DNA of 64,000 bases from an uncultured Lachnospiraceae bacterium (GTDB lineage: Bacteria > Bacillota > Clostridia > Lachnospirales > Lachnospiraceae). A program made the translations under genes and the position numbers. The notes under the pieces were generated by a model. The model had not been told where the DNA came from and did not search any database. It saw only the letters and a list, made by a program, of their open reading frames with translations. Position 1 is the stretch's first letter. Every line of letters begins with the position of its first letter. Positions 126-19,415 of this stretch are shown piece after piece. Location of the stretch: the NCBI GenBank assembly GCA_951801955.1, contig CATOOV010000007.1, positions 1 through 64,000 of the forward strand. Reading direction: 5' to 3'.

Positions 126-1538
126 GAATTTGAAAAAAGCGGCACGAACGGGAAGTGTATCGAGGCAAGAGAGCTAATGATTGCCCTGCCGGAGAGTTTT
201 ATCCACTATGACCATGACTATCTGCTGAAAAGGATGGTGGACAAATTTAAGGAAAAGTATGGCGTGGAGTGTTTTGCTGCGCTACACCACAATAAGCGAA
301 AAACAAATCTGCATATCCATATGATATTTGCGGAGAGGAAACGGCTGGAGCAGCCAACAGAAAAGGTTGCCACCCGGAATATGTTTTATGACGAGCAGGG
401 GCATCATGTGCGGACGAAAAAGGAGATACTTGAAGATGACGGAAATATCCGCAAGGGCAGTAAAATCATCAAAAAAGGGGAGGTATACGAGCGTAAGATT
501 TTTACCGTAAAAGACGGACGTTTCAAGCAGGAATCTTTTTTGGATGAAGCAAAGGTTTTTTATACGGATTTGATTAATCAGATGGTGATCGATGATAAGG
601 ATCGGCTCAGCATATTTGATAAAAACGGTCCGTACCTTGCGACAAAGAAGGTCGGTAAAAACAATCCGAAAGCGGAGGAAATAAAGGCAGACAATGAAAT
701 CCGCATGGAATGGAACAGGACGGTTGACCGTGCAATCGTAAGCGGCGTATCCGAAGCGGAGATTTTGGAGTTAAAGAAAACGGAGATTACGGACAGGGCA
801 AAGGAATCCGTGGAGCAGAATGGAAAAAAGCCGGAGCTGTTCGGGGATATTGTGAGGGCGGCGATTGCACTGTTGGAGAGCTTGATTTCAAAGGTTATGC
901 GGAAGGTAATGGATGCTGTGGAAAAAGTTGTTGATGCTGTAAAAGAATCACCGAAAGAAACGGAAAGCCATATCCATACAAAAGACGAGCCGTTAGATCA
1001 GCCGGAACGAAAGAAGATACCACTTCCTGTAAATCAGCACCAGAGGGAGGTGACGGCAGAAAGACCGCCGCAGCCAAAGCCATCCGTGCTTGCAGGTAAA
1101 TATCACCGCCTAAAAGAAATCGACGGCAAACTTAAGGAACAGAACAAGGCAATTTTTGAGCGTGAGAAAAAGAGGGATAAGCTGAAAAAAGAATTATCTG
1201 GATGCACGGGTATTTTTAAGAGTGGCAGGCGTAAAGAGCTGCAACAAGAGATTGATGGGATTGACACCCAGATTTCAAATATGAAAAAGTGGCTTTCATC
1301 TATCGTGAAGGAATACAAATTCGATTCTGTGCAGGCATTTTATAAGGAATTTAAAGCAGCCAAGAGCGAGTATCTTGATTATATAGCTGCTAGTTTAGAG
1401 TGGGAGAAAACCTATGGAGAAAAGGTAATAGATACCGAGAGCATCAGAGACAGGCTCAAGCAGAAAGAGCAGATGGTGAAAGAAAGAGAAGTGGACAGGG
1501 ATTATCAAGTAAGACAGCAAGATAAAGGTGCAAGGTAG
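126..1538 (+). pseudogene. MobA/MobL-type relaxase, 5' end removed by an insertion sequence
   Basis: The frame is open from 45, but recognisable relaxase sequence begins near 126 (ARELMIALPESF). An HxH metal-binding motif (NLHIHMIF, about 307-330) follows, as in the MobA/MobL family that nicks plasmid or element DNA at oriT. The C-terminal half is charged and coiled-coil-like, with a Pro-rich linker near residues 320-350. The first conserved catalytic segment, with the nicking tyrosine region, is missing and is replaced by the end of an IS3-type element read in reverse (1-46). The protein was therefore probably inactivated. It marks the region as part of a mobilizable element; the oriT would be expected upstream, outside the window. 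Confidence 0.7.
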
Positions 1539-1630
1539 CGAAATTAGAAATGAACTACCCCGTAACTTTGCTACGAGATAGTTTATTTGACATTGTGCGA
1601 ATGAATGCGTATAATTGGATTAGTTTGATA

Positions 1631-1659
1631 TTGAGGCAAAATATGTGATAACATATGAT
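1631..1659 (+). promoter_or_regulatory. Candidate promoter with palindromic operator for the island operon
   Basis: TTGAGG (1631-1636) and TATGAT (1654-1659) are separated by 17 bases, a good sigma-A spacing. The spacer and -10 contain a perfect inverted repeat, ATATGT-GATA-ACATAT (1641-1656). It would be well placed as an operator for the small HTH protein encoded just downstream. The autoregulation is inference. Confidence 0.45.
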
Positions 1660-1713
1660 GTAAAACTATAGAGATTGTAGAATGTAAGCGTGTTGCAGTA
1701 TTGATTATTAGAC

Positions 1714-1748
1714 ACAATCTTTTCCTTTTTTGGTAGGATTGTTTTTTT
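1714..1748 (+). terminator. Weak terminator-like hairpin in the island operon leader
   Basis: ACAATC (1714-1719) can pair with GATTGT (1737-1742), followed directly by a run of T. It lies between the candidate promoter and the first gene, so it could act as a leaky attenuator or end transcription arriving from the relaxase side. The stem is short. Confidence 0.3.
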
Positions 1749-1768
1749 GGCATTGTGCGAGGTGAACT

Positions 1769-1975
1769 ATGAACGGATATTTAAAAATTTCTGAGGTTTC
1801 GGAAAAATGGGGGATTAAAGAACGCCGAATCAATACTTTATGTCTTGAAGGACGAATTGAAGGTGCTATCAAGTTTGGTAACACTTGGGCTATTCCAGAA
1901 GGATCAGAGAAACCAAAAGATGAAAGAATAAGAACAGGGAAATATATAAAAAGTAAAGAAAATGATGATGAGTGA
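1769..1975 (+). CDS. Small helix-turn-helix (excisionase/MerR-like) DNA-binding protein
   Basis: A 68-aa protein with a winged-helix pattern seen in many short Firmicutes proteins: YLKISEVSEKWGI, then an RRINTLCLEGRIEGA recognition segment, then FGNTWAIPEGSEKPKD. This family is usually annotated as a helix-turn-helix or excisionase-like protein and often sits at the head of accessory or defence loci. The start has an AGGTGA ribosome binding site. It lies 52 bp upstream of the large ATPase gene and is the likely transcriptional regulator of the operon, perhaps through the palindrome at 1641-1656. A recombination directionality role is less likely because no integrase is in view. Confidence 0.7.
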   Translation: MNGYLKISEVSEKWGIKERRINTLCLEGRIEGAIKFGNTWAIPEGSEKPKDERIRTGKYIKSKENDDE

Positions 1976-2027
1976 CAAATAGTGTCATCCACAGAAGTTA
2001 CAATAGAAAAAATGTAAGGAGTGTGTT

Positions 2028-4994
2028 ATGACAAATCAGAATGATATGGTTAGATTGAAAACAAATACAAGTGAGTTATTTGATTTGTTTCACTTTGTTC
2101 AAAAGATGGATTTGGACGTTCCTTTTGAGCCAATTGCCGATATAGGATATCCAGAAGATGACGGCTTGAGCACAAGTGATGATATGTGTTTCTATAAAGT
2201 TGAAAAGCTATCATATGACGAGGAGTATCCAAGAAGAGAAGCTTTTGAAAATGTATTAGATTCGCTTGATAATGAGGCTTTCAATTTTGTTTATGTACTT
2301 TCCGGCAATAACTTAGGTGTGGAATTACACATAGGGGTTGTGAAGAATCATAGGAACAATAGAAGAACACTGTCCACAGTTAATTATGGTGATATTATTG
2401 AAAATGCATTTGAGGGAAATTTTAGTGGTAGCTCACTGAAAAGGTTAGATTCCGATGAATTGCAAGAAAAGATTATAAAGCAAATAAAAAATTATAAGAG
2501 CGCTGGAATAATATCTGGGATACCATCTATAAATGAGAGTGATGCAGGCGAGAAATTTGATTTCCAGGGAATTGATAGGTTGATTAATAGTATGCTTGGA
2601 CAAACATGGAGAATTGTAGTTATCTGTGAACCTGTTAGTCAGTCTGAGATATTACGAGTGAAAGATGACATATACGAATTGTATAACCGATTATCAGTAT
2701 ATTCTAAAGCAACTATACAAAAGTCTTTGAATACAGGCGATAGTGTTTCCTTTGGAAGAAATGTTTCAAACTCTCATGATAAAAACCGAAATTGGAGTGA
2801 AAGTGATACTGAATCCAACGGAAAAGCAAATAGTAGCGGAACAAAGAACTCTGGTACATCTCACCAATTTGGAAGAGGCGGTGGAAGTAGTCGAGGACAT
2901 AGCGAAGGGGAAAATTGGAGTTATAATCAAAATAGAGGTACATCTCAAGCAGTTACTATTGAAATGGCTAATAAGCATGCACAGGATTTGATGCAGTATA
3001 TTGATGATGAGTTGTTGCCAAGAATTAAAGAGGGATATGGAAAAGGCATGTTTAAGACATCATTGTTTTATATGGCTGACAAGGTAACAACTGCTAATAG
3101 GTTAAAGTTATCTATTATGTCACTTTTCCAAGGAGATAAATCAAACTTTAGCCCTTTGATTGCTCAAGAACTGAACTTGAGAGAGCGTATTAGTGCAAAA
3201 GCTTTAGTTTCATACCAAAATGGTTTTTATGATATGAAAGAATATTCGCTAGATGCAGCCACGCTTTTAAGTAAGCCTGTTGATTCTCAGTTTGGATTGG
3301 GCATATCTACATATTTAACTGTGGGTGAGGCTAGTATTCTTGCAGGATTGCCACAGAAGGAAGTCCCAGGAATTGTACTGAATGAAGCTGTTGACTTCGG
3401 TTTGAACGAGCATCCTATCGCAAATCAAGATGCGATTGACATGGGTGTACTTGTTCAAAAGGGAAGAAAGTTAAATATTAGATTTTCATTGAAGAAGGAT
3501 TCGATGATGAAGCATACATTCATAGCCGGGGTAACAGGAACAGGTAAGACAACAACGTGCCATAAGCTTTTAGCTGCCTCAGCAGTGCCTTTTCTTGTAA
3601 TAGAACCTGCAAAAACTGAATATAGAACTTTAGCACAAGAAAAGAACAGAAAAAAATACGGTGATGTATATGTATTCACATTAGGAAATGAGAGTATTGC
3701 ACCATTTAGAATTAATCCGTTTGAATTGGTTAAGGGAGAAGTTATATCTGCTCATATAGATATAGTCAAAGCCACATTTACTTCTGCTTTTCCTATGGAA
3801 GCATCTATGCCACAAATTTTAGAGGAGGCGATTGTTAAGTGCTATGAAAATAAGGGATGGAGCATTGATACTAACTCGAACAGTCTTTATGATGATCCAT
3901 TTAACAAAGATAAGGAAAAAAGCTTTCCAATAATGTCGGAATTGCTGGAAGAAATGAAAAAGATAGTTAAAGAAAAAGGGTTCAGTGCTCAAATGCAAGC
4001 CGATTATGAAGGTTCTTTGGTTAGTAGATTATCAAATTTAACAGTTGGCGCAAAAGGAAGAATGTTGAATTGTCCATATTCAACTGACTTCAGATTTATA
4101 GTCTATAACAAGGTAATTCTCGAAATGGAAGAACTTAAATCACCAGAGGATAAAGCCTTGTTTATGGGATTCATTTTATCAAGATTGTCTGCAGTGATTA
4201 AGGCAGAACATAAAAGAGATTCTGGCTATAGACATCTTACACTTATCGAAGAAGCACACAGGTTGCTTGCAAAAGTCGAATATGGTGATAGTGGCTCAAA
4301 AAAGACTGCCGTAGAGACATTTACGGATTTACTTGCTGAAGTGAGAAAATACGGCGAAGGATTGATAGTTGTCGACCAGATTCCAAATAAACTAGCACCA
4401 GAAGTATTAAAAAACACTAACACTAAAATAATTCACAAAATATTAGCTAGGGATGATAAAAAAACGGTTGGTGACACAATGCTTATGGATGATAAGCAAA
4501 AAGAATTCTTATCTGCTTTAGAACCAGGACACGCTATAGTATTTTCGGAAGATACAGACAAGCCAGTTCATGTGTATGTCGAACGAGAAACCGACACTAA
4601 TGAAGATGAGATTGATGAAGTTATAATAAAAAGCCAATTTGATCTTAATAGAGAAAACTATGGTTCGATTTATAATGAATTGGAAATAGTTCAAGATTAT
4701 GACTTTTATCTTGTCTTGGCAGAGCAAATTAGAACAAGGCAATTGGAAACCGAAAACCTAGATAAGTTTAGAAAAATTGTAGAGAGGATTGCGAAACAAC
4801 CTGTTTTTGCAACTTTACAAGAGCCGGAAAAAGAAGTACTGAAAAAGTTTTTTGCAAGAAGAGAGAGACTCATTGGTAATGCTTATGATGAAGTATTCGC
4901 AGAAAATGCAGCAAGATTCTTGTTAGGATTATTAAATAAGGATGTTCTTACATATGATGATTTAGACTATAAAAAATGCAGATGGTTTGTATAG
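2028..4994 (+). CDS. HerA/FtsK-like P-loop ATPase (DUF87-type), 988 aa
   Basis: Large motor ATPase. Walker A is GVTGTGKT at residues 501-508. Walker B is LIEEAH around 739-744. A later DQIPNKLAPEVLKNTNTK stretch matches the sensor/arginine region of HerA-type hexameric translocases. The N-terminal ~500 residues are not a recognised domain and contain a striking low-complexity Ser/Gly/Asn stretch (about residues 240-305) that looks like a flexible linker. HerA-like ATPases pump DNA or act as hexameric platforms for nucleases and other effectors in defence and conjugation. No nuclease domain is visible here. The start follows a TAAGGAG site. The next gene begins 12 bp downstream, so it is co-transcribed. 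AGA is the dominant Arg codon, unlike the core genes. Confidence 0.75.
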   Translation: MTNQNDMVRLKTNTSELFDLFHFVQKMDLDVPFEPIADIGYPEDDGLSTSDDMCFYKVEKLSYDEEYPRREAFENVLDSLDNEAFNFVYVLSGNNLGVELHIGVVKNHRNNRRTLSTVNYGDIIENAFEGNFSGSSLKRLDSDELQEKIIKQIKNYKSAGIISGIPSINESDAGEKFDFQGIDRLINSMLGQTWRIVVICEPVSQSEILRVKDDIYELYNRLSVYSKATIQKSLNTGDSVSFGRNVSNSHDKNRNWSESDTESNGKANSSGTKNSGTSHQFGRGGGSSRGHSEGENWSYNQNRGTSQAVTIEMANKHAQDLMQYIDDELLPRIKEGYGKGMFKTSLFYMADKVTTANRLKLSIMSLFQGDKSNFSPLIAQELNLRERISAKALVSYQNGFYDMKEYSLDAATLLSKPVDSQFGLGISTYLTVGEASILAGLPQKEVPGIVLNEAVDFGLNEHPIANQDAIDMGVLVQKGRKLNIRFSLKKDSMMKHTFIAGVTGTGKTTTCHKLLAASAVPFLVIEPAKTEYRTLAQEKNRKKYGDVYVFTLGNESIAPFRINPFELVKGEVISAHIDIVKATFTSAFPMEASMPQILEEAIVKCYENKGWSIDTNSNSLYDDPFNKDKEKSFPIMSELLEEMKKIVKEKGFSAQMQADYEGSLVSRLSNLTVGAKGRMLNCPYSTDFRFIVYNKVILEMEELKSPEDKALFMGFILSRLSAVIKAEHKRDSGYRHLTLIEEAHRLLAKVEYGDSGSKKTAVETFTDLLAEVRKYGEGLIVVDQIPNKLAPEVLKNTNTKIIHKILARDDKKTVGDTMLMDDKQKEFLSALEPGHAIVFSEDTDKPVHVYVERETDTNEDEIDEVIIKSQFDLNRENYGSIYNELEIVQDYDFYLVLAEQIRTRQLETENLDKFRKIVERIAKQPVFATLQEPEKEVLKKFFARRERLIGNAYDEVFAENAARFLLGLLNKDVLTYDDLDYKKCRWFV

Positions 4995-5006
4995 GAGGTA
5001 AAAGAC

Positions 5007-5639
5007 ATGGGATTAATTTTAGGAGCAATTGGAGTGATAGTGACAGTGGCTGTTACCGTTTCAAAAGCATTAGCATTAGCAGGGCTGGCAGTTCAAGGAT
5101 TAAAGGTAATTGGAAATTCAATTGCATCAATAGCAAAAGCATTAGGAATCATTAAGCCTGAAAGAGATGTTGAGGAAATTGGTGATAGAGCATTTCAGGC
5201 TGAAGAAAAGGGTATGACACCAGATAAGTATTCTTCATATGAAGCGTGGGTTAAGGACATTGAAAAGGATGATTGGGGATATGACCCTGAAAAGAACAAG
5301 GATATGGATTCTCAAAAAAAGGTTCTTAAGGGTGTAGAAGTATCAACAGCTGTAACAGTGGAGCGTTTCCCAGGACTTCCTATTCAAGAATTTTTCAGTC
5401 TTGCTGTGAAAAACCCAGAGTTCTTTACCGTAGAAAGAATGGACGAAATCGGGAAATTAGCTGGTGCTGATTCAGACGCATTTGGAAAGGTTGTTAACTA
5501 TGTAACCGGTTCTGCGAAAGATCATACAACTGTCGATATGGCTTCAGATATTTTGATGGATATTGAGCGAACAATTGATCCGAGTGTTAGCGAAAATGTG
5601 GCTTATGATAAAGTTGCAGGATATAAAGGCATGAAATAA
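5007..5639 (+). CDS. Uncharacterised 210-aa protein, paralogue A, hydrophobic N-terminus
   Basis: I do not recognise the family. Residues 1-50 are strongly hydrophobic and rich in Ala, Val, Ile and Gly, suggesting a membrane-inserted or amphipathic segment. The rest is a soluble acidic domain. It is clearly paralogous to the product of 5706-6356: both share AKxLGII, a following VEExGxRAxQA block, a DDWGY motif, a KNPEFFTVxRM-like block and an MAxDxLxxIExxIxP block in the same order. An excellent ribosome binding site (AGGAGG) precedes the ATG. The pair sits between the ATPase and the GTPase, so it may be a membrane-associated partner of one of those NTPases. Confidence 0.6.
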   Translation: MGLILGAIGVIVTVAVTVSKALALAGLAVQGLKVIGNSIASIAKALGIIKPERDVEEIGDRAFQAEEKGMTPDKYSSYEAWVKDIEKDDWGYDPEKNKDMDSQKKVLKGVEVSTAVTVERFPGLPIQEFFSLAVKNPEFFTVERMDEIGKLAGADSDAFGKVVNYVTGSAKDHTTVDMASDILMDIERTIDPSVSENVAYDKVAGYKGMK

Positions 5640-5648
5640 ACGGATTTT

Positions 5649-5683
5649 AGCAATATCTTTTCTGTAAGGGGAGAGATATTGCT
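5649..5683 (+). promoter_or_regulatory. Intergenic hairpin between the two paralogues
   Basis: AGCAATATCT (5649-5658) and AGATATTGCT (5674-5683) form a perfect 10-bp stem with a 15-nt loop. Only a weak T-rich tail follows, so it is more likely an mRNA-stability or processing hairpin than a full terminator. It sits in one of the largest gaps inside the operon (66 bp). Confidence 0.5.
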
Positions 5684-5705
5684 GTTTGTGTAAAGGAGAA
5701 AAAAT

Positions 5706-6356
5706 ATGGATATTTCAATTAGTAATGAAACTTTTATTCCTCAAATTCAGCAACTTCCACTTAACGGAAAAGATATTGTAACTGCGATTGAAACAGTAAA
5801 ATTGGCTATTGAAGTTGTTAAGAGTATTGGAAATGCAATGATGGAATTAGCGAAGGAATTGGGTATAATTCCCAATATGGAAGTAGAGGAACTTGGGGCG
5901 AGAGCTATTCAAGCAATTGATAAAGGTGTTTGTCCAGAAAATTTTGCTACTACAGAGGAATGGGTTACCAAGTTAATGCATGATGATTGGGGATATGCTC
6001 CTGAATTGAGTGAAAACTTTTCTCAAAATGAGAAGATTTACATGGGTATTGGAATGATTGCCGCTTATTTAGTAGATAAATTTGAGCAATGGCCGATAAA
6101 GGATTTTCTGCTATTAGCAGCCACTAATCCGGCTTTATTTACAGTAGATAGAATGAGTGCAATATCAGGACTTATTCTCAATGGAAGCAAAGCATTGGGT
6201 TCCATTGTGCAGTATTTGTCGGGAAATGATAAATCGAGACAGACTGTTGAAATGGCAACAGATACATTAATTGAGATAGAAAAAAATATTAATCCGGAAT
6301 TGGATGATAATGAAGCATATAAAATGGTATTGTCTTATAGCAAGTCAGGAATTTAA
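5706..6356 (+). CDS. Uncharacterised 216-aa protein, paralogue B
   Basis: Paralogue of the upstream gene with the same motif order: AKELGIIP, VEELGARAIQA, DDWGYAPE, then NPALFTVDRM and MATDTLIEIEKNINP. Its N-terminus is less hydrophobic than that of paralogue A but still carries an Ile/Val-rich helix at about residues 25-50. The ATG follows TAAAGGAG. Keeping both copies in tandem with substantial divergence suggests a hetero-oligomer. Function unknown. Confidence 0.6.
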   Translation: MDISISNETFIPQIQQLPLNGKDIVTAIETVKLAIEVVKSIGNAMMELAKELGIIPNMEVEELGARAIQAIDKGVCPENFATTEEWVTKLMHDDWGYAPELSENFSQNEKIYMGIGMIAAYLVDKFEQWPIKDFLLLAATNPALFTVDRMSAISGLILNGSKALGSIVQYLSGNDKSRQTVEMATDTLIEIEKNINPELDDNEAYKMVLSYSKSGI

Positions 6357-6384
6357 GAGACATATGACAAAGGAGGGTTGATTT

Positions 6385-6849
6385 ATGAAATTCTTTATTA
6401 TTATAGGCAGAAGAGCGCTATATACATATGAACATGACGGCCAACGCTTTGAATCGCAATTTATAGAAGGAAGCAAGGCATTTCCAATAAGTTCAACTAA
6501 TGTTTCTGAAGATGTAAATGCATATATGGAAATATTAGCAAATGAGAAGAATCTGGGAACAGTTGCAAAGCTGGAGTTCGAGGTGCTTGAAGGTTCAGAT
6601 ATTAATTTGAATAAAGCAATTGTTACAGCTTTTGGTGAACACATCAATAAAGTGTATTCATTAGAAAATACATTGAACACAGTAACGAAAAAACTGCTAC
6701 GTGATAAAAAGTTAATGGTTGACACCTATGGCATAAATTATGAAGGATGCGCATATAAGCTTGAGAGTAATACTCTCATACAGGGGGAGTTTGATTTACT
6801 GGGATACACAATTCACTGTAATGATGTTGTTGGATTGATGGATTTGTAA
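6385..6849 (+). CDS. Uncharacterised 154-aa protein
   Basis: No family recognised. It starts MKFFIIIGRRALYTYEHDG, which resembles a beta-strand-led small alpha/beta domain, and shows no signal peptide, Cys cluster or obvious catalytic motif. A strong site (AAAGGAGG) precedes the ATG. It lies 28 bp after paralogue B and 16 bp before the dynamin-like GTPase, so it is very likely translated as part of the same transcript. Confidence 0.55.
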   Translation: MKFFIIIGRRALYTYEHDGQRFESQFIEGSKAFPISSTNVSEDVNAYMEILANEKNLGTVAKLEFEVLEGSDINLNKAIVTAFGEHINKVYSLENTLNTVTKKLLRDKKLMVDTYGINYEGCAYKLESNTLIQGEFDLLGYTIHCNDVVGLMDL

Positions 6850-6865
6850 TGAAGGAGGAAGAATT

Positions 6866-8452
6866 ATGGGAGCATTAATATGCGAAGTATGTGGAAGTCA
6901 AAATGATTCAAAGAAATATTTTTGTTCAAAGTGTGGAAAGTTTTTGTTAGCAGGTGATTTCGTGGATGCTGGAATTTCAGGAGATGCAGAATTAAAACTG
7001 TCAAGAATAGCGACAAACTTAAAAGAAAATCCACATATTGATATATTGTGGAATGATACGATAGATGCATATACTCGTAAGATTGAAAGAATTCAAAGTT
7101 TACTGAGAATAAAAGACTTGGAAATAGATTCCACTGAATTAAATGAAAAGGTAGATCAATTTTTAAATATATGTAGAAAACCAGATTTTGAAATTGCGTT
7201 TGTAGGTGCAGTAAAGGCTGGAAAATCTACGCTGATTAATGCATTGCTTGGTAGAAATTATGCATCAACAGATCCTAACCCAGAAACAGCAGTATTGACA
7301 AAATTTCGAAGCAGTGAACAGGATTATATTAAAGTTAAATTTTATTCAGCAAGGGAGTGGGATAAGCTTTGGAAATCCGTACAGTCAGATGCAGAAAGAT
7401 TTTTGGAATTATATAAGGAATTAGAAGCCGAGAAGCATAAATCAAAGTGGGTAGGACATGGTGAAATGCGGTTCGATTTGGAAAATAGTGAGATTGAAGA
7501 CGAATTGAAAAAATGGTCATCGTCGCAGAGTGCAGTTCACTTTTTTGTTAAAGAAATCGAGGTTGGAATATCATCACTTCCTAAAGATTTTCCAAAGCAA
7601 GTTGTGTTTGTTGATACACCAGGATTATTTGATCCTGTAGCCTTTAGATCTCAGATCTCCATCGACTATATTCATAGCGCAAATGCAGTTTTGGTATGTG
7701 TTAAAGCTGAGGACTTGCATGGTGAGGAAGTTAAGACAGTAGAATCTGTATTCTCATTTTCGGGGCATAAGAGAAATAAGGTATTTGTGATAGCTACTAA
7801 TTGGGATAAGTTAAACAATGTGATAATTGATTGGAACAAGAGATATAACTATATGATTAAGTCATTTACAGGAAAGGCATTCTTCCCAACGAAGGACATG
7901 GCGCAAAGTAACATTTTATATGCTGCATCTTATCATTATAATCTTTGCAGAGATTATAATTCATTAAGAAGTTCACAAAAAAATGAGATTAATATTTTAT
8001 TGATGAAGATTCAAACAGCTATCGAAGATTGTCAGGATAAAAAGGTACCTATCCCAGAGAATATTATTGCTCTTGCTGATGCACAGTTAGGGATGTTATC
8101 TCCATCAGACATAAAGGGATTAATGGAACTTACAAATATTCAGATTATAAATAAAGTGATTGTAACTGAACTGGTTAATCAATATGCAGAATTATTATAT
8201 GGTGACATTAAAAACTTGTATGGGGATATACAGCATATGGTGGGTAGAGTAGCTGGTGAGAGAAAGAAAACTGTTAATGAGAGAATAACAATTTCTCATT
8301 CAGATATGAAGGAAATTGAAAAAAAGGTTGAAGAAACAAAGAAGAACCGAGATGAAATTCAAAAGGTTCAGAGACAATTAACAGCAGCATTAGCCAGTCT
8401 TAATAAGAATACCCAACAAAGACTCAAAACAATCACATCAAAATTAGGGTGA
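6866..8452 (+). CDS. Dynamin-like GTPase with N-terminal zinc ribbon
   Basis: A 528-aa protein with a zinc ribbon from four Cys (C6, C9, C20, C23) followed by a large GTPase. G1 is GAVKAGKST (residues 114-122), G3 is DTPG (250-253) and G4 is TNWDK (311-315). The AVKAGKST P-loop is characteristic of bacterial dynamin-like proteins, which bind and remodel membranes. The C-terminal ~60 residues form a coiled coil (KKVEETKKNRDEIQ). A site of type AAGGAGGA precedes the ATG. The stop overlaps the next start by 4 bp, implying translational coupling to the LpxD-like gene. Bacterial dynamins protect membranes under stress or phage attack; that role here is inference. Confidence 0.85.
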   Translation: MGALICEVCGSQNDSKKYFCSKCGKFLLAGDFVDAGISGDAELKLSRIATNLKENPHIDILWNDTIDAYTRKIERIQSLLRIKDLEIDSTELNEKVDQFLNICRKPDFEIAFVGAVKAGKSTLINALLGRNYASTDPNPETAVLTKFRSSEQDYIKVKFYSAREWDKLWKSVQSDAERFLELYKELEAEKHKSKWVGHGEMRFDLENSEIEDELKKWSSSQSAVHFFVKEIEVGISSLPKDFPKQVVFVDTPGLFDPVAFRSQISIDYIHSANAVLVCVKAEDLHGEEVKTVESVFSFSGHKRNKVFVIATNWDKLNNVIIDWNKRYNYMIKSFTGKAFFPTKDMAQSNILYAASYHYNLCRDYNSLRSSQKNEINILLMKIQTAIEDCQDKKVPIPENIIALADAQLGMLSPSDIKGLMELTNIQIINKVIVTELVNQYAELLYGDIKNLYGDIQHMVGRVAGERKKTVNERITISHSDMKEIEKKVEETKKNRDEIQKVQRQLTAALASLNKNTQQRLKTITSKLG

Positions 8453-9393
8453 AAAATATGTTAGTATCTGAAATCACTAATTTATTGGGATACGAAATGG
8501 TTGGAGAAGATTGTGAGGTATATGGGATATCATGGTTTGACTCAGCCAAGGAGAAGGACATTGCTGTAATAAATAAAAAAAATGATTTGAAGAATACTTT
8601 GGCAGATGTTGTATTAACAAAACCTATAATTGCTCAAACAGATAAAACATTAATAATCACATTTGAAGATATTGAATGTTCTTTTGTTAAGGTATGCAAG
8701 GCTTTGATTGATAATGGGATTCTAGAAGATTATTCAACTCCAACTCAATATGTGTTACATGAGAGAGGATATTATGTGGGAAAAAATTGTAATATAAGTG
8801 ATACTGCAATCATTCGGCCGGGGGTAATGATTGGAGACAATGTCACAATTGAGGATGATTGTTTTATCGAACCTTATGTTGTGGTTGGAGATGGAACTGT
8901 ACTTGGAAAGAAAATACATATTGGAGCAGGAAGTAAGATTGGAGTTCCAAGTTTCTATCATTATTATGTTGATGAACAAATTAAGAAATTTGATGGATGT
9001 GGAATCGTTAGGATTGGAGATGGTACAAGCATTGGATGTAATACTATCATTCAAAGAGGAACAATTTCTGATACCATGATTGGTATCAACAATATGATAG
9101 GAAACGCCATAGATATAGGGCATGATGTGAAAATAGGAGATAATTGTAAAATCGTTTCACAGACAGGAATTGCAGGAAATGTATGCATAAAGAATAATGT
9201 TACAATTTATGGACAAGTTGGTATTTCAAATAATCTTGTTGTTGGGAACAACGTAGTAATTAAAGGACGAGCAATAGTATCGAAATCGGTAAATGACAAT
9301 GAAATTATATATGGACCTTTTGGAAGAAAATTTTCTGATGAAATGAAACTTATTGCAAAAGCAAGACGCTTTTTTAAAGGAAAGGATGAGTGA
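8449..9393 (+). CDS. LpxD-like left-handed beta-helix acyltransferase
   Basis: A 314-aa protein with an N-terminal uridine-binding-like domain (residues 1-100) and then a long run of hexapeptide repeats typical of LpxD/LpxA acyltransferases. IDIGHDVKIGDN (221-232) carries a His (H225) in the place of the LpxD catalytic base, and SQTGIAG follows as in LpxD. LpxD adds an acyl chain to a UDP-glucosamine in lipid A synthesis, which a Gram-positive host should not perform, so the acceptor here is unknown. The start is GTG at 8449 overlapping the GTPase stop; an ATG at 8458 is an alternative. The gene is AT-rich like the rest of the operon. Confidence 0.8.
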   Translation: MKNMLVSEITNLLGYEMVGEDCEVYGISWFDSAKEKDIAVINKKNDLKNTLADVVLTKPIIAQTDKTLIITFEDIECSFVKVCKALIDNGILEDYSTPTQYVLHERGYYVGKNCNISDTAIIRPGVMIGDNVTIEDDCFIEPYVVVGDGTVLGKKIHIGAGSKIGVPSFYHYYVDEQIKKFDGCGIVRIGDGTSIGCNTIIQRGTISDTMIGINNMIGNAIDIGHDVKIGDNCKIVSQTGIAGNVCIKNNVTIYGQVGISNNLVVGNNVVIKGRAIVSKSVNDNEIIYGPFGRKFSDEMKLIAKARRFFKGKDE

Positions 9394-10105
9394 GAATATG
9401 GGCGGAAGTTGTTATGTAAGTAATCACCCGATTTTAGATTTTTTTAGTGACCTATTTTGTAGCGATAGCTGTTGTGTTGGTAATGCATCAGGACCATCAG
9501 AGTCGGAGCAGCACGCAAAAAAAATTGCTGAAGAATTAGCCGAGATGAAAGAAAAATCCGGAAAATCATCAAGTGAAACCGAACAAAATATAATGGATTA
9601 CATTAATCGTTCAATGTATTCTTTTATGATTGAAATTGATAAAATTAACCAGCAAACCTTTTTTGGTGAGAAGTTAAATATTAATACTGAAGCCATTAGA
9701 GAGAAGAATGAACAGCTTAATAGACAAGTTGTAGGATGTATTAGTTCTGTGCTAAACACAAGATTGGTTCAAACAGATAAAGAATTGAGTACAATTCTTG
9801 AGGAAAGAGATGCAAAAAAACGAAAGGCAAACTTTGAAAAATTTGTCGAGAAAATAAAAAAACAAGCTATAAATAAGTTGCGGATTGAAATTGAGAAAAC
9901 AGTAAATGCACAGTCAGAAGTAGTTTCAAAAGAAATAAAGACGCGTCAGAAGGAAGTTGATACCCGTATGGAAGAGTCCATAAAGGAATTGACTGAAATT
10001 GTGGAGGTAAAAGAAAAAAGCGAATCAGAATTGAAAAAGAAACAAGTGAATTATATGTATCAGAGTGCTTTGTGCGATTTACTGTTAGCTGAAGTTGAAG
10101 GGTAG
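9386..10105 (+). CDS. Coiled-coil protein with Cys-rich N-terminus
   Basis: I place the start at ATG 9386, which has AAAGG five bases upstream and overlaps the preceding gene by 8 bp; ATG 9398 is possible. The first ~40 residues hold several Cys, including CSDSCCVGN, and then an unbroken charged helical region runs to the end, predicted coiled coil by heptad-like Lys/Glu spacing. No known domain was recognised. The Cys-rich head could bind metal, be lipidated or be modified; a radical SAM/SPASM enzyme is encoded three genes downstream. It may be a scaffold for the neighbouring GTPase. Confidence 0.6.
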   Translation: MSENMGGSCYVSNHPILDFFSDLFCSDSCCVGNASGPSESEQHAKKIAEELAEMKEKSGKSSSETEQNIMDYINRSMYSFMIEIDKINQQTFFGEKLNINTEAIREKNEQLNRQVVGCISSVLNTRLVQTDKELSTILEERDAKKRKANFEKFVEKIKKQAINKLRIEIEKTVNAQSEVVSKEIKTRQKEVDTRMEESIKELTEIVEVKEKSESELKKKQVNYMYQSALCDLLLAEVEG

Positions 10106-10116
10106 GTGAAAGTCGC

Positions 10117-10893
10117 TTGTGGATTACAACAAAATTTATTGTTAAAGAGATAAAAAAGAATCAAGAAGACTTTGCTGTACAGCTTGAAAAAATAGCTGTT
10201 GAGCAACGACAAAGTGCTGAAGCATTACAAAAGCAAATAGCCGTCTTGGTTGAAAGGATGGATTGTTTAGAAAAACTTAATGCTGAAGATAGGGAAAGAA
10301 ATAACAGCAATTATTTTGAACTTGTTAGATTGATTGAAAATATTAATAAACTGCTGAATGATTTACAAAGAAATATAGTTACTGAATTTGAATCCAGAAC
10401 ACAAAGGTTAAACGATCAAATTATATATTCTTCTCAAAATGAGACAAAGGTGATTCTTGAATCTATTCAAAAATCTTTGGACAAGGTTAGTGAAAATTTA
10501 AAAGATTCTGCTGGGCAGTGCGAAAATCATTTGAAGGATGAAATTGAGAAGGTAATAGATTATTCAATGACTGCTGGGGAGAAAAATACTTCACTGGTTA
10601 TGGATGATCTTACGTCTAAATTAGAACAAGTTGAGAAAATAGTTCGGTATGCAAGTGACGAACTCGTTCGAGAAACGACTAACCAGTGCAATGATATTTC
10701 TGATGGGCTAAAGGAAATTCGTTATGCAATCAAAAATATGACTGCGTTGTCCGAAAATCAGGACAGAGTGGTATCTGAAAACATTGAAACTATGAGTGTT
10801 GCTATGCAAGAAATGATGAGAGGCTTGTTGTCTTTGGATGAAGCAAATCGATTGATAATCGCAAAGCTGCTTTTAAAGGATATGGAGATTTGA
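10117..10893 (+). CDS. Long coiled-coil protein, 258 aa, TTG start
   Basis: Almost entirely helical and charged, with heptad-like spacing throughout, resembling cytoplasmic stalks or scaffolds rather than an enzyme. No membrane segment. The only good start is TTG at 10117, supported by AGGTGA seven bases upstream. The stop is one base from the next ATG. Together with the preceding coiled-coil protein it could form a filament or tether. Function unknown. Confidence 0.6.
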   Translation: MWITTKFIVKEIKKNQEDFAVQLEKIAVEQRQSAEALQKQIAVLVERMDCLEKLNAEDRERNNSNYFELVRLIENINKLLNDLQRNIVTEFESRTQRLNDQIIYSSQNETKVILESIQKSLDKVSENLKDSAGQCENHLKDEIEKVIDYSMTAGEKNTSLVMDDLTSKLEQVEKIVRYASDELVRETTNQCNDISDGLKEIRYAIKNMTALSENQDRVVSENIETMSVAMQEMMRGLLSLDEANRLIIAKLLLKDMEI

Positions 10894-10894
10894 T

Positions 10895-11053
10895 ATGGAG
10901 ATTATTATTTCCGCTAACGAGAAAATATTGGCTATTACACGGGATAATAGGCTTTCACAGAATATGTCGGAGGAAGAGTATACTGAGTGGCTCAATAAAT
11001 TGATAAATGTGGGGATAGAAGATGAAAAGGAAATACAAAAAGTCCCAATTTAA
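10895..11053 (+). CDS. 52-aa small protein overlapping the radical SAM gene
   Basis: The ATG at 10895 lies one base after the coiled-coil stop, with GGAG (10884-10887) seven bases upstream. The 52-aa acidic product contains a SEEEYTEWLNKL helix and ends KVPI. It has no Cys and no double-Gly leader. It overlaps the radical SAM gene by 32 bp in another frame, a geometry that suggests translational coupling. It could be a peptide substrate, a small recognition partner or an adaptor for that enzyme; none of these can be proven here. Confidence 0.5.
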   Translation: MEIIISANEKILAITRDNRLSQNMSEEEYTEWLNKLINVGIEDEKEIQKVPI

Positions 11054-12236
11054 TTATGTAAGTGATTCTAAAAATGGACATATAATATACAACACGCTGT
11101 ATAACTCATTAACAAGGTTATCTGATGAAGAATATGATGTTTATTTATCAGAATATGATTCTGGTTGCCAAATTGCAAATCAATTGTATATGCAGGGGCT
11201 GTGGGTTGATGCAAATGTTGATGAATTGGAGCAGTATAATCTGTATACTGATTATGCAAATTGTTATGCTGGTAGCAAACCACATTTTACTATTACACCG
11301 ACTATGGAGTGTAATGCTAGATGTTTCTATTGTTATGAAGACGGAGTGAGATGTGGAAGAATGCAACAGGAAGACTGTAAAAACATAGTAAGATTTTTGA
11401 AAACGCTAGATTACAGTCAAGGAATAGATTTAACATGGTTTGGCGGTGAACCTTTAATGAATCAAGAGTGGATGGATTGCTTTTCGGAAAGTTTGGAAAA
11501 TGCTGGAATTGAATTTTCAGCCTTTATTATTACTAATGGAAGCAAGATCGACGATACCACAATTGATAAAATGATTAATAAGTGGAAAATACAAGATATT
11601 CAGATTACATTGGATGGAAGCTATGAGGAGTATTTTTTCAGAAAAGAATATGTAGACCAAGACAATGCTATTTATTATAGAATCTTGCAAACTATTGGTA
11701 AATTGGCAGGAAAAGGTATAAGTGTTCAATTGAGGATGAATATCGATAGAAATAATCGGGAAAGCATTTTAAATGCAGTGGCCGATATAAATGAACTCTT
11801 TAAAGATAATAGTAGAGTTAAGTGCTATCCTGCTTTTTTGACAGGTGCGAAGGAACCATTAACTGAAAAAGAAAAAATTGATTTTATTAAGGAAATGATT
11901 GAAATAGGTCAAGGAAAGTTTAATGTCAACGAATGCCTGTATAGATTACCAAGAACAAAGGCATGTTATTATTTCCAGAAAAATGCATATTCAATTGATG
12001 CTAGTGGGAATGTGTTCATATGTGAGCATATGCTAGGACATGAACAACAATCTATAGGAAATATAAAGACAGAAATAGTTACTATTGAAAGAGAGCAATC
12101 AGGAAAAAGGAAAGAGTGTCAAAAATGCGTCTTTTTGCCAAAATGCCAGGGTGGCTGCATGGATTCCTTGCAACATGGTGAACCCCCGTGTTTCACGGAC
12201 AAATATATAATCATGGCATATTTAGATTTATTATAG
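11022..12236 (+). CDS. Radical SAM/SPASM-domain enzyme, 404 aa
   Basis: The radical SAM [4Fe-4S] motif CxxxCxxC is C97, C101 and C104 in TMECNARCFYCYEDG. A SAM-binding GGEP (TWFGGEPLMN) follows. The C-terminal SPASM region has the expected Cys set, including a central CEH and a final CQKCVFLPKCQGGC. SPASM enzymes modify peptides or proteins by radical chemistry (thioether links, formylglycine, epimerisation and others) and often act on a small peptide encoded next door. Here the neighbours are a 52-aa ORF and a Cys-rich coiled-coil protein. The start ATG at 11022 has GGGGAT upstream. Confidence 0.85.
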   Translation: MKRKYKKSQFNYVSDSKNGHIIYNTLYNSLTRLSDEEYDVYLSEYDSGCQIANQLYMQGLWVDANVDELEQYNLYTDYANCYAGSKPHFTITPTMECNARCFYCYEDGVRCGRMQQEDCKNIVRFLKTLDYSQGIDLTWFGGEPLMNQEWMDCFSESLENAGIEFSAFIITNGSKIDDTTIDKMINKWKIQDIQITLDGSYEEYFFRKEYVDQDNAIYYRILQTIGKLAGKGISVQLRMNIDRNNRESILNAVADINELFKDNSRVKCYPAFLTGAKEPLTEKEKIDFIKEMIEIGQGKFNVNECLYRLPRTKACYYFQKNAYSIDASGNVFICEHMLGHEQQSIGNIKTEIVTIEREQSGKRKECQKCVFLPKCQGGCMDSLQHGEPPCFTDKYIIMAYLDLL

Positions 12237-12241
12237 GGGTG

Positions 12242-12628
12242 ATGAACTTGAAAAAAGAGAATCTTGAATCTCGATTAGATAACATTGAAGAAATATTAAA
12301 GATGTTACTTGTCAATAGTGTTCTTGGAAGCAGTGAGATCAATAAAATACAAGAGAACATCTTAAATGGTGTTAGAGATATACTATTTGCATTTGGGATG
12401 GAAAATTTGCGGTTGAATTATATTGAAGATAAGTACTATATATTTGCTGAAATTGATGAAAATGAAACATTGAAAAATATCAAGAGTAATTATTCTCAGG
12501 CTTGTGATTTTTTAGATAATGTAAAGCTTGTTTTAGCATTTGAAAAATTGCATGTTAAGAGAAAAAGAGCTTTTGAAGAAGCTAAGATATCTTTTTACAT
12601 TAAAAGTGGCGAAATGAGAATTTTCTAG
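12242..12628 (+). CDS. Uncharacterised 128-aa protein, last gene of the island operon
   Basis: The start is ATG 12242 (a GTG at 12239 is alternative), just after AGGGG and five bases from the previous stop. It begins with a coiled-coil segment (NLESRLDNIEEILKML), then a compact alpha/beta region. No recognised family. Its position makes it a likely accessory factor of the radical SAM enzyme or the terminal component of the system. Confidence 0.55.
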   Translation: MNLKKENLESRLDNIEEILKMLLVNSVLGSSEINKIQENILNGVRDILFAFGMENLRLNYIEDKYYIFAEIDENETLKNIKSNYSQACDFLDNVKLVLAFEKLHVKRKRAFEEAKISFYIKSGEMRIF

Positions 12629-12765: not shown

Positions 12766-13464
12766 TTCTCTGAAGAAGCAGTTGGCAATGCTGTCCGCAA
12801 ATGCGGCGTTCCCCGTGAAGAACTGTTTCTTACGACAAAAGTATGGATCAGTAACGGTGGTTATGAAAAGGCAAAAGCTTCCCTGAAAGACTCCCTGCGC
12901 AAACTACAGACAGAATATATTGACCTGGTGCTCATCCACCAGCCATTTAATGATTATTATGGGACTTACCGAGCAATGGAGGATGCTTACAAAGAAGGAT
13001 GGCTCCGTGCTATCGGCGTGTCAAATTTTTATCCTGACCGTCTGGTTGATTTTTGCAATTTTGTAGAAGTAAAACCGGCTGTCAATCAGGTAGAAACCCA
13101 TGTGTTCCAGCAACAGGTACAGGCGCATGAGTACATGGAGAAATATGGTGTGCAGCATGAATCCTGGGGACCATTTGCCGAAGGGCGTAAGGATTTCTTT
13201 ACAAATCCCGTGCTGCTGGGGATTGGAAAAAAATATGGAAAAAGTGCTGCTCAGACGGCCCTGCGATTCTTGATCCAGAGTGGTGTGATAGTAATTCCGA
13301 AGTCCACCCATAAAATACGCATGATCCAGAACATAGATGTGTTTGATTTTATTTTAGATGAGGGGGATATGGCGGCAATACGGGAATTGGATACAAAGGA
13401 AAGCCTGTTTTTTTCCCATTATGATCCATCCACAGTGGAGATGCTGACAAGGCTTCACAGATAA
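12766..13464 (+). pseudogene. Aldo/keto reductase, 5' third missing
   Basis: The frame is open from 12760 and reads SEEAVGNAVRKCGVPREEL, LTTKVW, then IDLVLIHQP, AIGVSNF, NQVETH and a C-terminal VIVIPKSTH. This is the order of an NADPH-dependent aldo/keto reductase (2,5-diketo-gluconate reductase type). About 50-60 N-terminal residues, including the catalytic Asp and Tyr part, are absent, replaced by the accessory island. A GTG at 12928 could start a shorter product but would also lack the active site. The catalytic Lys (TTKVW) remains. Confidence 0.8.
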
Positions 13465-13957: not shown

Positions 13958-14796
13958 TCAGGCTGTGGCGGTCTGCGTTTGAGTATTCGGTACCCATTCA
14001 AGTTTTTTTAACTTTTTCAGATAGGCGTTTATCTTTCTTTCACGGTTAAACTGGTTATAATAATCACACCCTAAGTCCTTATACGGGAATTTTTCTTTTA
14101 ATACGTGGTATATTGCTGTCAACATTGAATGGGCTGATGCTACATACGCCCTCTTGTTTCCTCTATGACTGCTTATCCTTGTAAACTGTGCAGAAAAATA
14201 GGAACCCTTTACCCCCACCGCTGCATGGGCACAATTTATCAATATTGTTTTTAACAGCGCATTTCCTTTTGTTGTTATTCCGCTTTTCCTTTTCTTGGCA
14301 CTTTCATTATTCTCTGGGCAAAGCCCTGCCCAGGAACATAAATGCCCTTCATCTGGAAAACGGCCCATCTCAATCCCAATGGCTGCCAGTATCGCTTTTG
14401 CCCCATCCTTGCCTATCCCTGGTATTTTATCCAATGCTTCTATCGCCGGCTTATAACCGCCCCCCATATTTGTATCAATGTCTTGATCTAATTCCTTTAC
14501 ATGCCCATCTAACCCATTGATATGTTTTAGCAATTCTTTCATCATTTTTTTCTGCAGCGGCGACATCGCTCCTTCTATGTCTTCCAAAACGTTGTACAAA
14601 GGCTTCCAATAAGACGCGGCGCTTTCCATAGCGATCATTTCACACTTATTTCCCATAAGCCAGCCTGCTATTTTCAGGAGTTCCTTTGTGGTGGTCCCAA
14701 CCCCCTTAATTCATTAGACGTCCCATTTCGAAAACACGCCACAATCAGTTTCTTATGCACGTCTATGCCACAACAGCGCTCGTATACTTTTTCCAT
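13958..14796 (-). pseudogene. IS110-family transposase, frameshifted
   Basis: The minus-strand gene begins at ATG 14796 (MEKVYERCCGIDVHKK) with a GGGAGG site, carrying the first Asp of the DEDD domain. After about 35 codons the frame breaks; the rest continues in another frame from about 14690 (TTKELLKIAGWLMGNK) to 13958. The C-terminal part has IPGIGKDGAKAILAAIG and SWAGLCPEN, whose Ser is the second catalytic residue of IS110/IS1111 transposases. The offset between the two frames (140 bp from ATG 14796 to the Met codon at 14656) is not a multiple of three, which supports a real frameshift or a small deletion. Confidence 0.85.
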
Positions 14797-15015
14797 GTTC
14801 AATTCCTCCCATTTCAAAAATCTACGGCGTGAACGCCTGTCCCCCTATTATTTTCCTTTACGTCCTTCTACCTATGGCTGGATAATTCGTGGTGCAATGA
14901 GGAGTTCATGAATCAGTTTCCTATACGGGCTTCATGCCCAAAATTCGTTCAACCGCTGCCGCATACATGAAGTATACTCTTTCAGAACGTAAATTCATAG
15001 CCATGTTTCATTTAT
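14797..15015 (-). other. IS110 upstream non-coding end (possible bridge-RNA region)
   Basis: About 220 bp with no ORF directly upstream of the IS110 transposase start. In IS110-group elements this side encodes the structured bridge RNA that pairs with target and donor DNA. I see several short inverted stretches (for example GGCGTGAACGCC at 14825-14836) but cannot fold the region by hand. The element end is not defined. Confidence 0.35.
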
Positions 15016-15040
15016 CGTGGTGCTTTATAGAAGCATGGGG

Positions 15041-15200
15041 GTTTCCTATATGAGAAAAGCCCTCCGGGCAGGATGCGCACGCGCACAAGAGGAAACGATT
15101 ATTGCACAAATGTGCACGGCGCGGAACAAAAGATGCGTTAGCAAAAAAAGGTCGCGGAGGTGCGTGAAACGAACTTTTGTTCGATTAACAAAACCAAGCC
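15041..15200 (+). repeat. Dispersed repeat, type A, copy near 15.1 kb
   Basis: It contains TTTCCTATATGAGAAAAG, GCCCTCCGGGCAGGATGCGCAC, then GGCGCGGAACAAAAGATGCG and GTGCGTGAAACG. The same modules recur in the same order at 37104 and, reversed, at 49594. Only the right half of the leading palindrome is preserved here. The 95-codon frame running through it is an artefact of the repeat. Confidence 0.7.
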
Positions 15201-15342
15201 TTCAAAAGATAAAATTTTCTGGGAATAACCAATTACTGAAACAAATATTGAGGAATGCAGTGAGTTGTGATAATATGGAAATGTATTTGTTGCATAAGGG
15301 TTAAAACATAAAGATTAAAAATATACATTATTAGAGGGTTAT

Positions 15343-18525: not shown

Positions 18526-18604
18526 TTCGGGTCTGGAGGCAGTTGAAACAAAGATTCAACCAGCCCCCATTTGAACCATAGCAGGTACGGCAGAGGAGGA
18601 AAAA

Positions 18605-19384: not shown

Positions 19385-19415
19385 TAAAAGCACAATTGGA
19401 AAGGAAGACAACATA

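Follow-up and report, generated by a model that had tools for sequence, protein, structure and literature searches.

Why are a HerA-like ATPase, a dynamin-like GTPase, an LpxD-like acyltransferase and a radical SAM enzyme encoded together in one operon of an uncultured Lachnospiraceae bacterium? The question was raised by a first-pass annotation of 64,000 nucleotides of contig CATOOV010000007.1 (the window), which placed a candidate undescribed multi-gene system at 1769..12628. All four enzyme assignments were upheld by Pfam or NCBIfam matches above cut-off, which for the LpxD-like enzyme was that to Hexapep. A check of the open reading frames in the window confirmed that all operon genes lie on one strand, the forward one, and reproduced their coordinates. 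The HTH regulator described at the front is present as g1 (1769..1975), a small HTH_17-like protein of 68 aa, but its Pfam match is under cut-off (20.4 vs. 27 bits). Upstream of g1, a sigma-70-type promoter match (TTGACA-17-TATAAT) with 12/12 consensus bases was found on the same strand at 1587..1615; overall, promoter-like sites were not in excess (39 vs. a shuffled mean of 49.6).

The surroundings agree with the mobile setting that had been described. A MobA/MobL relaxase-like gene lies upstream at the contig edge (45..1538, forward strand; Pfam PF03389, 27.0 vs. cut-off 26.7 bits), and two gene remnants lie downstream: the 3′ part of an aldo/keto reductase gene (12928..13464, forward strand), which covers profile positions 107-290 of 291, and a fragment of an IS110-family transposase (13958..14656, reverse strand). 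Intergenic gaps had been put at no more than 66 bp, which failed for g9-g10, where the first start codons leave 128 bp. This gap holds a 52-codon ORF, g9b (10895..11053, MEIIISANEKIL...), which overlaps g10, so the operon would have 12 genes. With the start codons that we chose for g8 (most likely 9398, MGGSC) and for g11 (12242), the true overlaps are fewer than the four counted before. The last gene, g11 (12242..12628), encodes a small protein of 128 aa without a Pfam match at E 0.01, and g9 (10117..10893, 258 aa) is a coiled-coil-like protein. Small coiled-coil-like genes similar to g9 were seen by eye in other loci, in the same place or 3′ of the radical SAM gene.

Homologues of these genes were not scattered. 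Of 21 dynamin loci that were opened, 10 kept the order HerA–g3–g5–dynamin–LpxD-like–g8–radical SAM, which spans two bacterial families, that of the window and that of locus L031. Finding this order again in other hosts is more than chance would give and supports a conserved multi-gene system. As one fixed set, however, it did not stand entirely: synteny favors it, but the system is modular, with a HerA-less core (dynamin–LpxD-like–g8–radical SAM) at locus L070, where HerA-g3-g5 is missing. The core is dynamin, LpxD-like enzyme, Cys-rich g8 and radical SAM enzyme, and HerA-g3-g5 is an added module. Nine further loci carry dynamin and g8 relatives only (the two-gene form), and neither an LpxD-like nor a radical SAM gene was found in the 9-31 kb per locus within which gene absence is scored here. 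The 11 loci with both enzymes belong to a single dynamin clade, together with L083, where the dynamin stands alone and the enzymes are missing; they therefore count as one origin, not 11, that is, as one event plus retention. A search of 300 genomes from the class of L031 returned no locus beyond the known ones. The gene set is apparently undescribed so far.

g8 (9398..10105, 235 aa) had been taken for a coiled-coil protein. The long helices bear this out, but the Cys-rich N-terminus to which they are joined had gone unmentioned. This terminus begins with MG and carries CC[VI]x[DN]-like repeats; the first ~30 residues of g8 are predicted to be disordered and the remainder helical. When Cys-rich was taken to mean three or more Cys among residues 1-50, a limit chosen post hoc with the sequences already seen, g8 was Cys-rich in 11/11 loci with both enzymes and in 0/9 two-gene loci. 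This coincidence of the Cys-rich g8 terminus with both enzymes is what is new here. Among the two-gene loci, 12 of 13 g8 copies have a hydrophobic or amphipathic start, and at L070 one Cys-rich and one non-Cys-rich g8 adjoin. An MG start was shared by all 13 Cys-rich termini (11 g8 and 2 LpxD fusions), compared with 5 of 14 others. Asp or Asn stood four residues past Cys at 40 of 122 Cys, while 5000 permutations, which count related sequences as independent, gave a mean of 17.8 (sd 3.2, maximum 31). The Cys spacing is mainly CC with a period of 4-5 (+5 for 50/122, +4 for 44/122, and +3, i.e. CxxC, for 17/122), and homologues reach 14 Cys in the first 50 residues. The g8 of the window has only 4 there, with CX3N present and no CX3D. 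No convincing relative of g8 was found among solved structures, and RiPP precursor models gave nothing above cut-off against five g8 proteins. One g8 match in another genome, G079 (E 9e-4), was judged to be chance, as no partner genes were among its neighbors. The Cys-rich N-terminus of g8 is proposed as the likely substrate of g7 and g10, which would tie both enzymes to the dynamin.

g10 (11022..12236, 404 aa) is a peptide-maturase-like radical SAM/SPASM enzyme. It matched Radical_SAM (44.9 vs. 29.5) and the SPASM domain TIGR04085 (38.1 vs. 27), and the Cys residues of its CX3CX2C motif (C97/C101/C104) were invariant in three aligned sequences. Its best curated matches were to models of peptide maturases, most of them acting on Cys-rich peptides (TIGR04463, Clo7bot, CefB), and also PapB. 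Its nearest known counterparts are the PapB/freyrasin ranthipeptide system and the CefB ‘Cys-every-fifth’ maturases; the enzyme adjoins a protein whose homologues are enriched in CX3[D/N]. The differences are that here the Cys-rich segment heads a helical protein of 235 aa and that g10 scored far under cut-off with these maturase models (for PapB-like NF047865, 89.1 bits vs. 340), so its chemistry may differ. PapB links Cys to Asp/Glu in CX3D/E motifs, as reported in PMC9413430, whereas the g8 of the window offers CX3N only. Scans of every operon protein except g9b (11 of 12) found no peptidase or exporter of the kind usual in RiPP pathways, and a literature search on the Cys-rich maturase family names found no paper. 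The small g9b resembled a separate ORF in locus L033 (score 59, reached by 0/2000 shuffles) and the beginning of the radical SAM protein in L031 (score 43, reached by 1/2000). A viperin-like antiviral enzyme was considered for g10 and rejected: the PADLOC pVip match (2e-14) covers the radical SAM core only, and NF038283 gave 40.9 vs. 180.

g7 (8449..9393, 314 aa) matched Hexapep (69.5 vs. cut-off 27) and LpxD-type models of Pfam and NCBIfam, and its similarity to LpxD covers nearly the whole length. It shares with the LpxD of lipid A synthesis the hexapeptide acyltransferase type and a conserved His225, which was aligned to 2iu8 and was invariant in 11 operon copies and 7 host LpxD; we take this His of the hexapeptide domain to be the catalytic-type residue in LpxD. 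In other respects the two are different. The operon copies of 11/11 genomes were under the TIGR01853 cut-off of 242.5 (163.2-223.3; 173.7 bits for the window copy), and in an unrooted tree a single branch (100/99) divides the 11 operon copies from the 7 host LpxD. At 49 host-invariant alignment columns, a few of which are gaps in the operon copies, the host residue never occurs in them. Moreover, LpxC was not found in 3/3 hosts of the window's family (G000, G272, G325; G000, the assembly of the window, is 88.8% complete), and the operon protein was their sole TIGR01853 match at 1e-15. The description of an acyltransferase without lipid A is thus supported for the window's host. In the family of L031, LpxC was found in 8/8 hosts and a separate true LpxD over cut-off in 7/8. 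The L070 copy passes the cut-off of the LpxD subfamily NF002060 (230.8 vs. 207; the window copy, at 171.8, is under it), so that an ordinary sugar-nucleotide acceptor is conceivable for that copy. In L031 and L112, the LpxD-like protein and a Cys-rich g8-like domain form a single fused protein.

g6 (6866..8452, 528 aa) belongs to the dynamin superfamily by its Dynamin_N match (68.7 vs. cut-off 27). The rest of the protein is helical, and an N-terminal zinc-ribbon-like Cys motif is under the Pfam cut-off. The closest solved relative was 5owv, a C. jejuni DLP (E 5e-25, profile 34-497), so that g6 aligns over nearly its full length with DLP1/DLP2 of Campylobacter jejuni (PDB 5OWV), which together with mitofusin-like dynamins are among the nearest known systems. 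The C. jejuni proteins are described in PMC6104087 as a lipid-binding pair and proposed membrane tether. The partner there is a second dynamin, whereas here it is a non-GTPase helical Cys-rich protein, accompanied by modifying enzymes and HerA. g6 is a bacterial dynamin, as are those of Eleos (LeoA/LeoBC) and of DynA-mediated phage resistance in B. subtilis, and it matched the PADLOC profiles of LeoA/LeoBC at 6e-12 and 2e-10. However, it is far under the NF041922 cut-off for LeoA (33.0 vs. 325), and no second dynamin of LeoBC type was found among the operon proteins scanned. The Eleos and DynA systems are not known to include LpxD, radical SAM or HerA.

g2 (2028..4994, 988 aa) is a HerA/FtsK-superfamily ATPase by profile matches and motifs. 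It matched HerA/DUF87 at 25.3 vs. a cut-off of 23.2, has a ~230-aa N-terminal region and a Ser/Gly-rich linker, and carries a Walker A-type GVTGxGKTTTC and an EEAH motif that were invariant in five aligned sequences. HerA antiphage systems have a DUF4297/SIR2-type partner, and none was found among the operon proteins scanned. g2 shares the HerA/DUF87 ATPase with the antiphage HerA and with the serine-rich HerA-like NF033849 proteins, but is far under the cut-offs of both models (NF042943 HerA_antiphage, 39.4 vs. 800; NF033849, residues 228-837 aligned, 124.8 vs. 650). In sister HerA loci of the same family, the genes alongside encode large GTPases and toxin-like proteins instead of LpxD and radical SAM enzymes, and representatives carry nuclease and immunity domains. 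g3 (5007..5639, 210 aa) is all-helical with a hydrophobic N-terminal helix in a predicted model (mean pLDDT 89.5), and no convincing relative was found among solved structures. g4 (5706..6356) is its paralogue, as first annotated (37% identity); the other nine full loci have a single copy of this type. A sequence scan found a hairpin with a T-rich tail between g3 and g4 (5648..5684, forward strand), a possible attenuator. g5 (6385..6849, 154 aa) has no Pfam match and is conserved, being present in 10/10 full loci.

Taken as a mechanism, the reading that we favor, at a little short of even confidence, is that the radical SAM enzyme cross-links and the LpxD-like enzyme acylates the g8 terminus, anchoring a dynamin machine whose likeliest role would be defence or envelope protection. 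The dynamin-like GTPase would act at a membrane, with g8 as its helical partner. The g8 relative of the two-gene form probably reaches the membrane via its hydrophobic or amphipathic N-terminal helix, and in the enzyme-bearing form the Gly/Cys-rich terminus would replace that helix. g10, together with g9b, would cross-link the CC[VI]x[DN] repeats by ranthipeptide-like thioethers, and g7 would acylate g8, most plausibly at the N-terminal Gly amine bared by Met removal, or at a free Cys. Once matured and carrying its lipid, g8 would serve as anchor and nucleation point for the dynamin, while the assembly, translocation or triggering of the machine would probably fall to HerA with g3/g4/g5. We regard as doubtful the most specific version, in which an LpxD-type enzyme freed from lipid A would N-acylate Gly (or S-acylate Cys) of a thioether-cross-linked terminus and the RiPP-like lipid anchor would recruit the dynamin to a HerA-motor conflict or defence machine, as a counterpart of eukaryotic N-terminal lipid anchoring.

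The g8 terminus might instead be a metal-binding (Zn, Fe-S or Cu) sensor of redox state or metal, with the enzymes acting elsewhere, e.g. on a membrane lipid or surface glycan. The density of up to 14 Cys per 50 residues would suit this, as would the nearly full-length LpxD similarity of g7 and the L070 copy that passes one LpxD subfamily cut-off. Such a sensor is unlikely, given that the Cys are mainly CC with a period of 4-5 rather than CxxC, that both enzymes track the Cys-rich form (present in 11/11 loci of one clade, absent from 9/9 two-gene loci), and that two loci fuse the LpxD-like protein to a Cys-rich g8-like domain. We think quite improbable a RiPP-like toxin or bacteriocin system in which g8 in its modified form (or g3/g4) would be the effector, HerA the export motor, and the dynamin a protecting or delivering part. 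The Cys-rich segment of g8 forms the N-terminus of a protein of long helices, no peptidase or exporter was found among the 11 operon proteins scanned (of 12), the L070 locus has no HerA, and the two-gene relatives lack both the Cys-rich terminus and the enzymes; the resemblance of g10 to maturases of Cys-rich peptides and the toxin-like genes paired with GTPases in sister HerA loci speak for it.

A plain antiphage system, with parts that act much like Eleos or HerA systems and enzymes that only tune activity, would account for the defence-type matches and neighbors. A bacterial dynamin delays phage lysis, as reported in PMC8844932. In the defence-neighbor test (10 neighbors from 4/11 modified loci), L033 was found among CRISPR-type-III-like and other defence-type genes (Cas10-like, Csx1-like, IetA-like, WYL), and a type I methyltransferase gene stood close to L112; L116 has a neighbor with a partial pAgo-type match, and L070 one with a weak LeoA match. 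On the other hand, the remaining 7/11 modified loci have ordinary-looking neighbors (by eye only). When 10 operon proteins (all but g9b and g11) were compared with PADLOC profiles, only single-domain matches were found, including HerA/mad8, LeoA/LeoBC and pVip, and against the corresponding NCBIfam models (LeoA-type dynamin, HerA_antiphage, viperin) the scores are far under cut-off. We consider this account improbable; a named HerA or Eleos system was discarded on these partial matches. Phage or plasmid cargo was also rejected. The operon DNA had no near match in 72,556 plasmids, from which g8 (queried with the L031 copy) was absent too, and dynamin relatives turned up there in 3 records when the dynamin of the window was used as query and in 10 when that of L070 was; the one inspected was the Lachnospira eligens megaplasmid NC_012780. 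HerA gave two distant matches in 50,697 phage records, and the one inspected carried no annotation. No viral contig matched the dynamin; the radical SAM query found 10 viral loci, and L086, the one examined, was without partner genes.

If the modified g8 terminus does anchor the dynamin, three features would come together for which no joint report was found in the open-access literature searched. Peptide-maturase chemistry would build the working part of an intracellular machine, not a secreted natural product. An LpxD paralogue would have an acceptor other than lipid A, even in hosts where LpxC was not found, and a bacterial dynamin would be anchored post-translationally. Mass shifts would then be predicted on a defined 30-residue terminus, and the modified and the helix-bearing two-gene forms would provide a natural comparison set.

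The make-up of the operon at 1769..12628 on the forward strand was examined. ORF coordinates and Pfam/NCBIfam domain matches bore out the genes, strand and setting described in the first-pass annotation, namely an HTH gene (g1), a HerA-like ATPase (g2), the paralogous helical g3 and g4, g5, a dynamin (g6), an LpxD-like acyltransferase (g7), g8, a coiled-coil-like protein (g9), a radical SAM/SPASM enzyme (g10) and g11. A sigma-70-type promoter was matched perfectly at 1587-1615, the number of promoter-like sites overall being not above that in shuffled sequence. A hairpin with a T-rich tail (5648-5684), possibly an attenuator, separates g3 from g4. The annotated maximum gap of 66 bp failed at one place: g9 and g10 lie 128 bp apart, and this gap contains a 52-aa ORF (g9b) overlapping g10. 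A g9b-like ORF was found at the equivalent position in L033, another locus with the full gene set. The radical SAM protein of L031, a locus in a Selenomonadaceae (class Negativicutes) MAG, starts with a g9b-like stretch (METLMSGNEKIL...), and because of this resemblance g9b probably works together with g10.

The conservation of gene order was then assessed. When 299 genomes from the window's family were searched with HerA at 1e-10, 35 had matches, most of them distant (best segments 23-36% identity); close HerA proteins (43-100%) occurred in four of the 35, window included. A pattern scan of species genomes with the window HerA, which detects close relatives only, returned one relative, L031. 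The dynamin profile at 1e-40 matched 5/397 genomes of the window's family, 3/391 of its class and 9/300 of L031's class, every one of the nine among loci already found; at 1e-30 it matched 13/151 genomes of L031's family. The window's family, taken to be Lachnospiraceae, and that of L031 likely belong to different classes. These searches plus one Lachnospira eligens plasmid pair gave 21 dynamin loci, all inspected, a count that leaves out more distant plasmid matches and a second L. eligens record. Ten (window, L031, L033, L111-L117) showed the order HerA–g3–g5–dynamin–LpxD–g8–rSAM, to which g4 is an extra in the window. L070, without HerA, has dynamin–LpxD–g8 relative–g8–small ORF–rSAM. In nine two-gene loci (L071, L073, L084, L085, L118-L122) the dynamin is accompanied only by g8 relatives, one or two per locus, and L083 carries dynamin alone. 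L032 and L034 have HerA and g3, the rest of the set being absent from the 9-10 kb covered. In L034 (5499-8528) HerA and the g3-like gene are followed by a 1009-aa protein without Pfam match at E 0.01, perhaps another variant module.

The helical body is common to g8 and its relatives, but their N-termini differ. All 11 modified loci, that is, those with LpxD-like and radical SAM genes, encode at least one g8 with an MG start followed by CC[VI]x[DN]-like repeats, as in L113 (MGGCCIGDCCVANCGFCCVFD). Such a terminus was found in none of the nine two-gene loci, where 12 of 13 g8 copies have a hydrophobic or amphipathic start (for example L071, MGLFSSIGGFVRAAGRTLGRG), the exception being the second copy in L118. 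In L070 the two kinds adjoin each other. Asp/Asn stands at +4 from 40 of 122 Cys, compared with 17.8 ± 3.2 (max 31) when non-Cys residues were permuted 5000 times; it stands at +3 from 38, and Cys at +5 from 50. The window's g8 is a sparse example, with four Cys within the first 50 residues and CX3N only; in its predicted model, residues 1-30 are disordered (pLDDT about 40) and the remainder forms long helices.

In a tree of 21 dynamin proteins (two from L121; the split dynamin of L085 left out), one clade (100/98) holds all 11 modified systems and L083, which lacks both enzymes, and the other two-gene forms fall outside. The window dynamin is 46% identical to that of L031 and 49% to that of L033. 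Since all modified systems share one clade, the association of Cys-rich terminus and enzymes is of single origin, retained across long divergence and two families. The lone dynamin of L083 (9230-10603), flanked by housekeeping-looking genes, is possibly a remnant of the system.

Both enzymes were compared with characterized relatives. The nearest curated models of the radical SAM protein are peptide maturases, mostly for Cys-rich peptides: TIGR04463 in the window and CefB in both L031 and L070. PapB, too, ranks within the top six. All these scores are far below cut-off. PapB links Cys with Asp in CX3D (PMC9413430). For the LpxD-like protein, three genomes of the window's family (G000, the window's own, G272 and G325) had the operon copy as sole TIGR01853 match at 1e-15, and LpxC was not found in these assemblies (completeness 88.8, 93 and 100%). 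In L031's family LpxC was present in 8/8 tested hosts and a separate LpxD above cut-off in 7/8, the exception being the assembly of G925. One branch (100/99) of an unrooted tree splits the 11 operon copies from the seven host LpxD. Seventeen positions, His225 included, are invariant across all 18, and in 49 columns the host-invariant residue is absent from all operon copies (a few being gaps there). Among these 49 are Phe 40 and His 43, which probably lie in the nucleotide-binding loop, and four positions in the GFGFT loop of the host proteins (168-172). Because these columns differ, the operon protein fits an enzyme with an altered acceptor. However, the L070 copy, nearest to the host proteins, scores above the NF002060 LpxD subfamily cut-off, which counts against this reading. 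In L031 and L112 the LpxD-like ACYLTRANSFERASE sits behind a fused Cys-rich g8-like domain.

Twenty-nine more distant, sister HerA loci from the window's family were compared using a map of single-linkage clusters. A dynamin/GTPase-cluster gene lay within two or three genes of HerA in 17, and a downstream gene from two toxin-like clusters was present in 15 (L035, L038, L042-L044, L046-L050, L054-L056, L058, L061). Among three tested representatives, Pfam domains were colicin-DNase/WHH (L054), LHH (L035) and YezG-like immunity (L044). Because sister HerA loci adjoin GTPases and toxin-like or immunity genes, the HerA class of the window seems to operate in conflict settings, and the sister loci may form a separate toxin-deployment system. 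All loci with such a toxin-like gene except L061 have a large-GTPase-cluster gene nearby (14/15), and by eye a motif like IxPExxMxxxxAKxFW is common to the N-termini of the toxins of L044, L055, L056 and L058. PADLOC was run on ten neighbouring proteins belonging to four modified loci (of 11) and gave a type I methyltransferase (L112), a partial pAgo-type match (L116) and a weak LeoA match (L070). In L033, Cas10-like and CARF-HEPN (Csx1-like) proteins lie to one side of the operon (1502-4629); on the opposite side (14605-19992) stand an IetA-like AAA protein, a WYL regulator and a putative membrane protein. These AAA and membrane protein families also occur near HerA in L036, L037 and L060. 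A WYL-type regulator lies upstream in three two-gene loci (L073, L084, L085), and further upstream in L033. Among the open-access papers listed on these subjects (HerA, dynamin, radical SAM, LpxD, RiPP, lipidation, antiphage, Eleos, polymorphic toxins) no description of the system was found, nor do the passages on HerA and dynamin in two conflict-system surveys describe the gene set.

The best solved relative of the dynamin is a lipid-binding pair from C. jejuni, proposed to act as a membrane tether (PMC6104087). In the mechanism we propose, g10 and g9b would cross-link the g8 terminus and g7 would acylate it, so that the modified terminus would replace the N-terminal helix as membrane anchor. 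Dynamin assembly would follow cross-linking and acylation, with HerA as an added motor, and our guess is that the system acts against phage.
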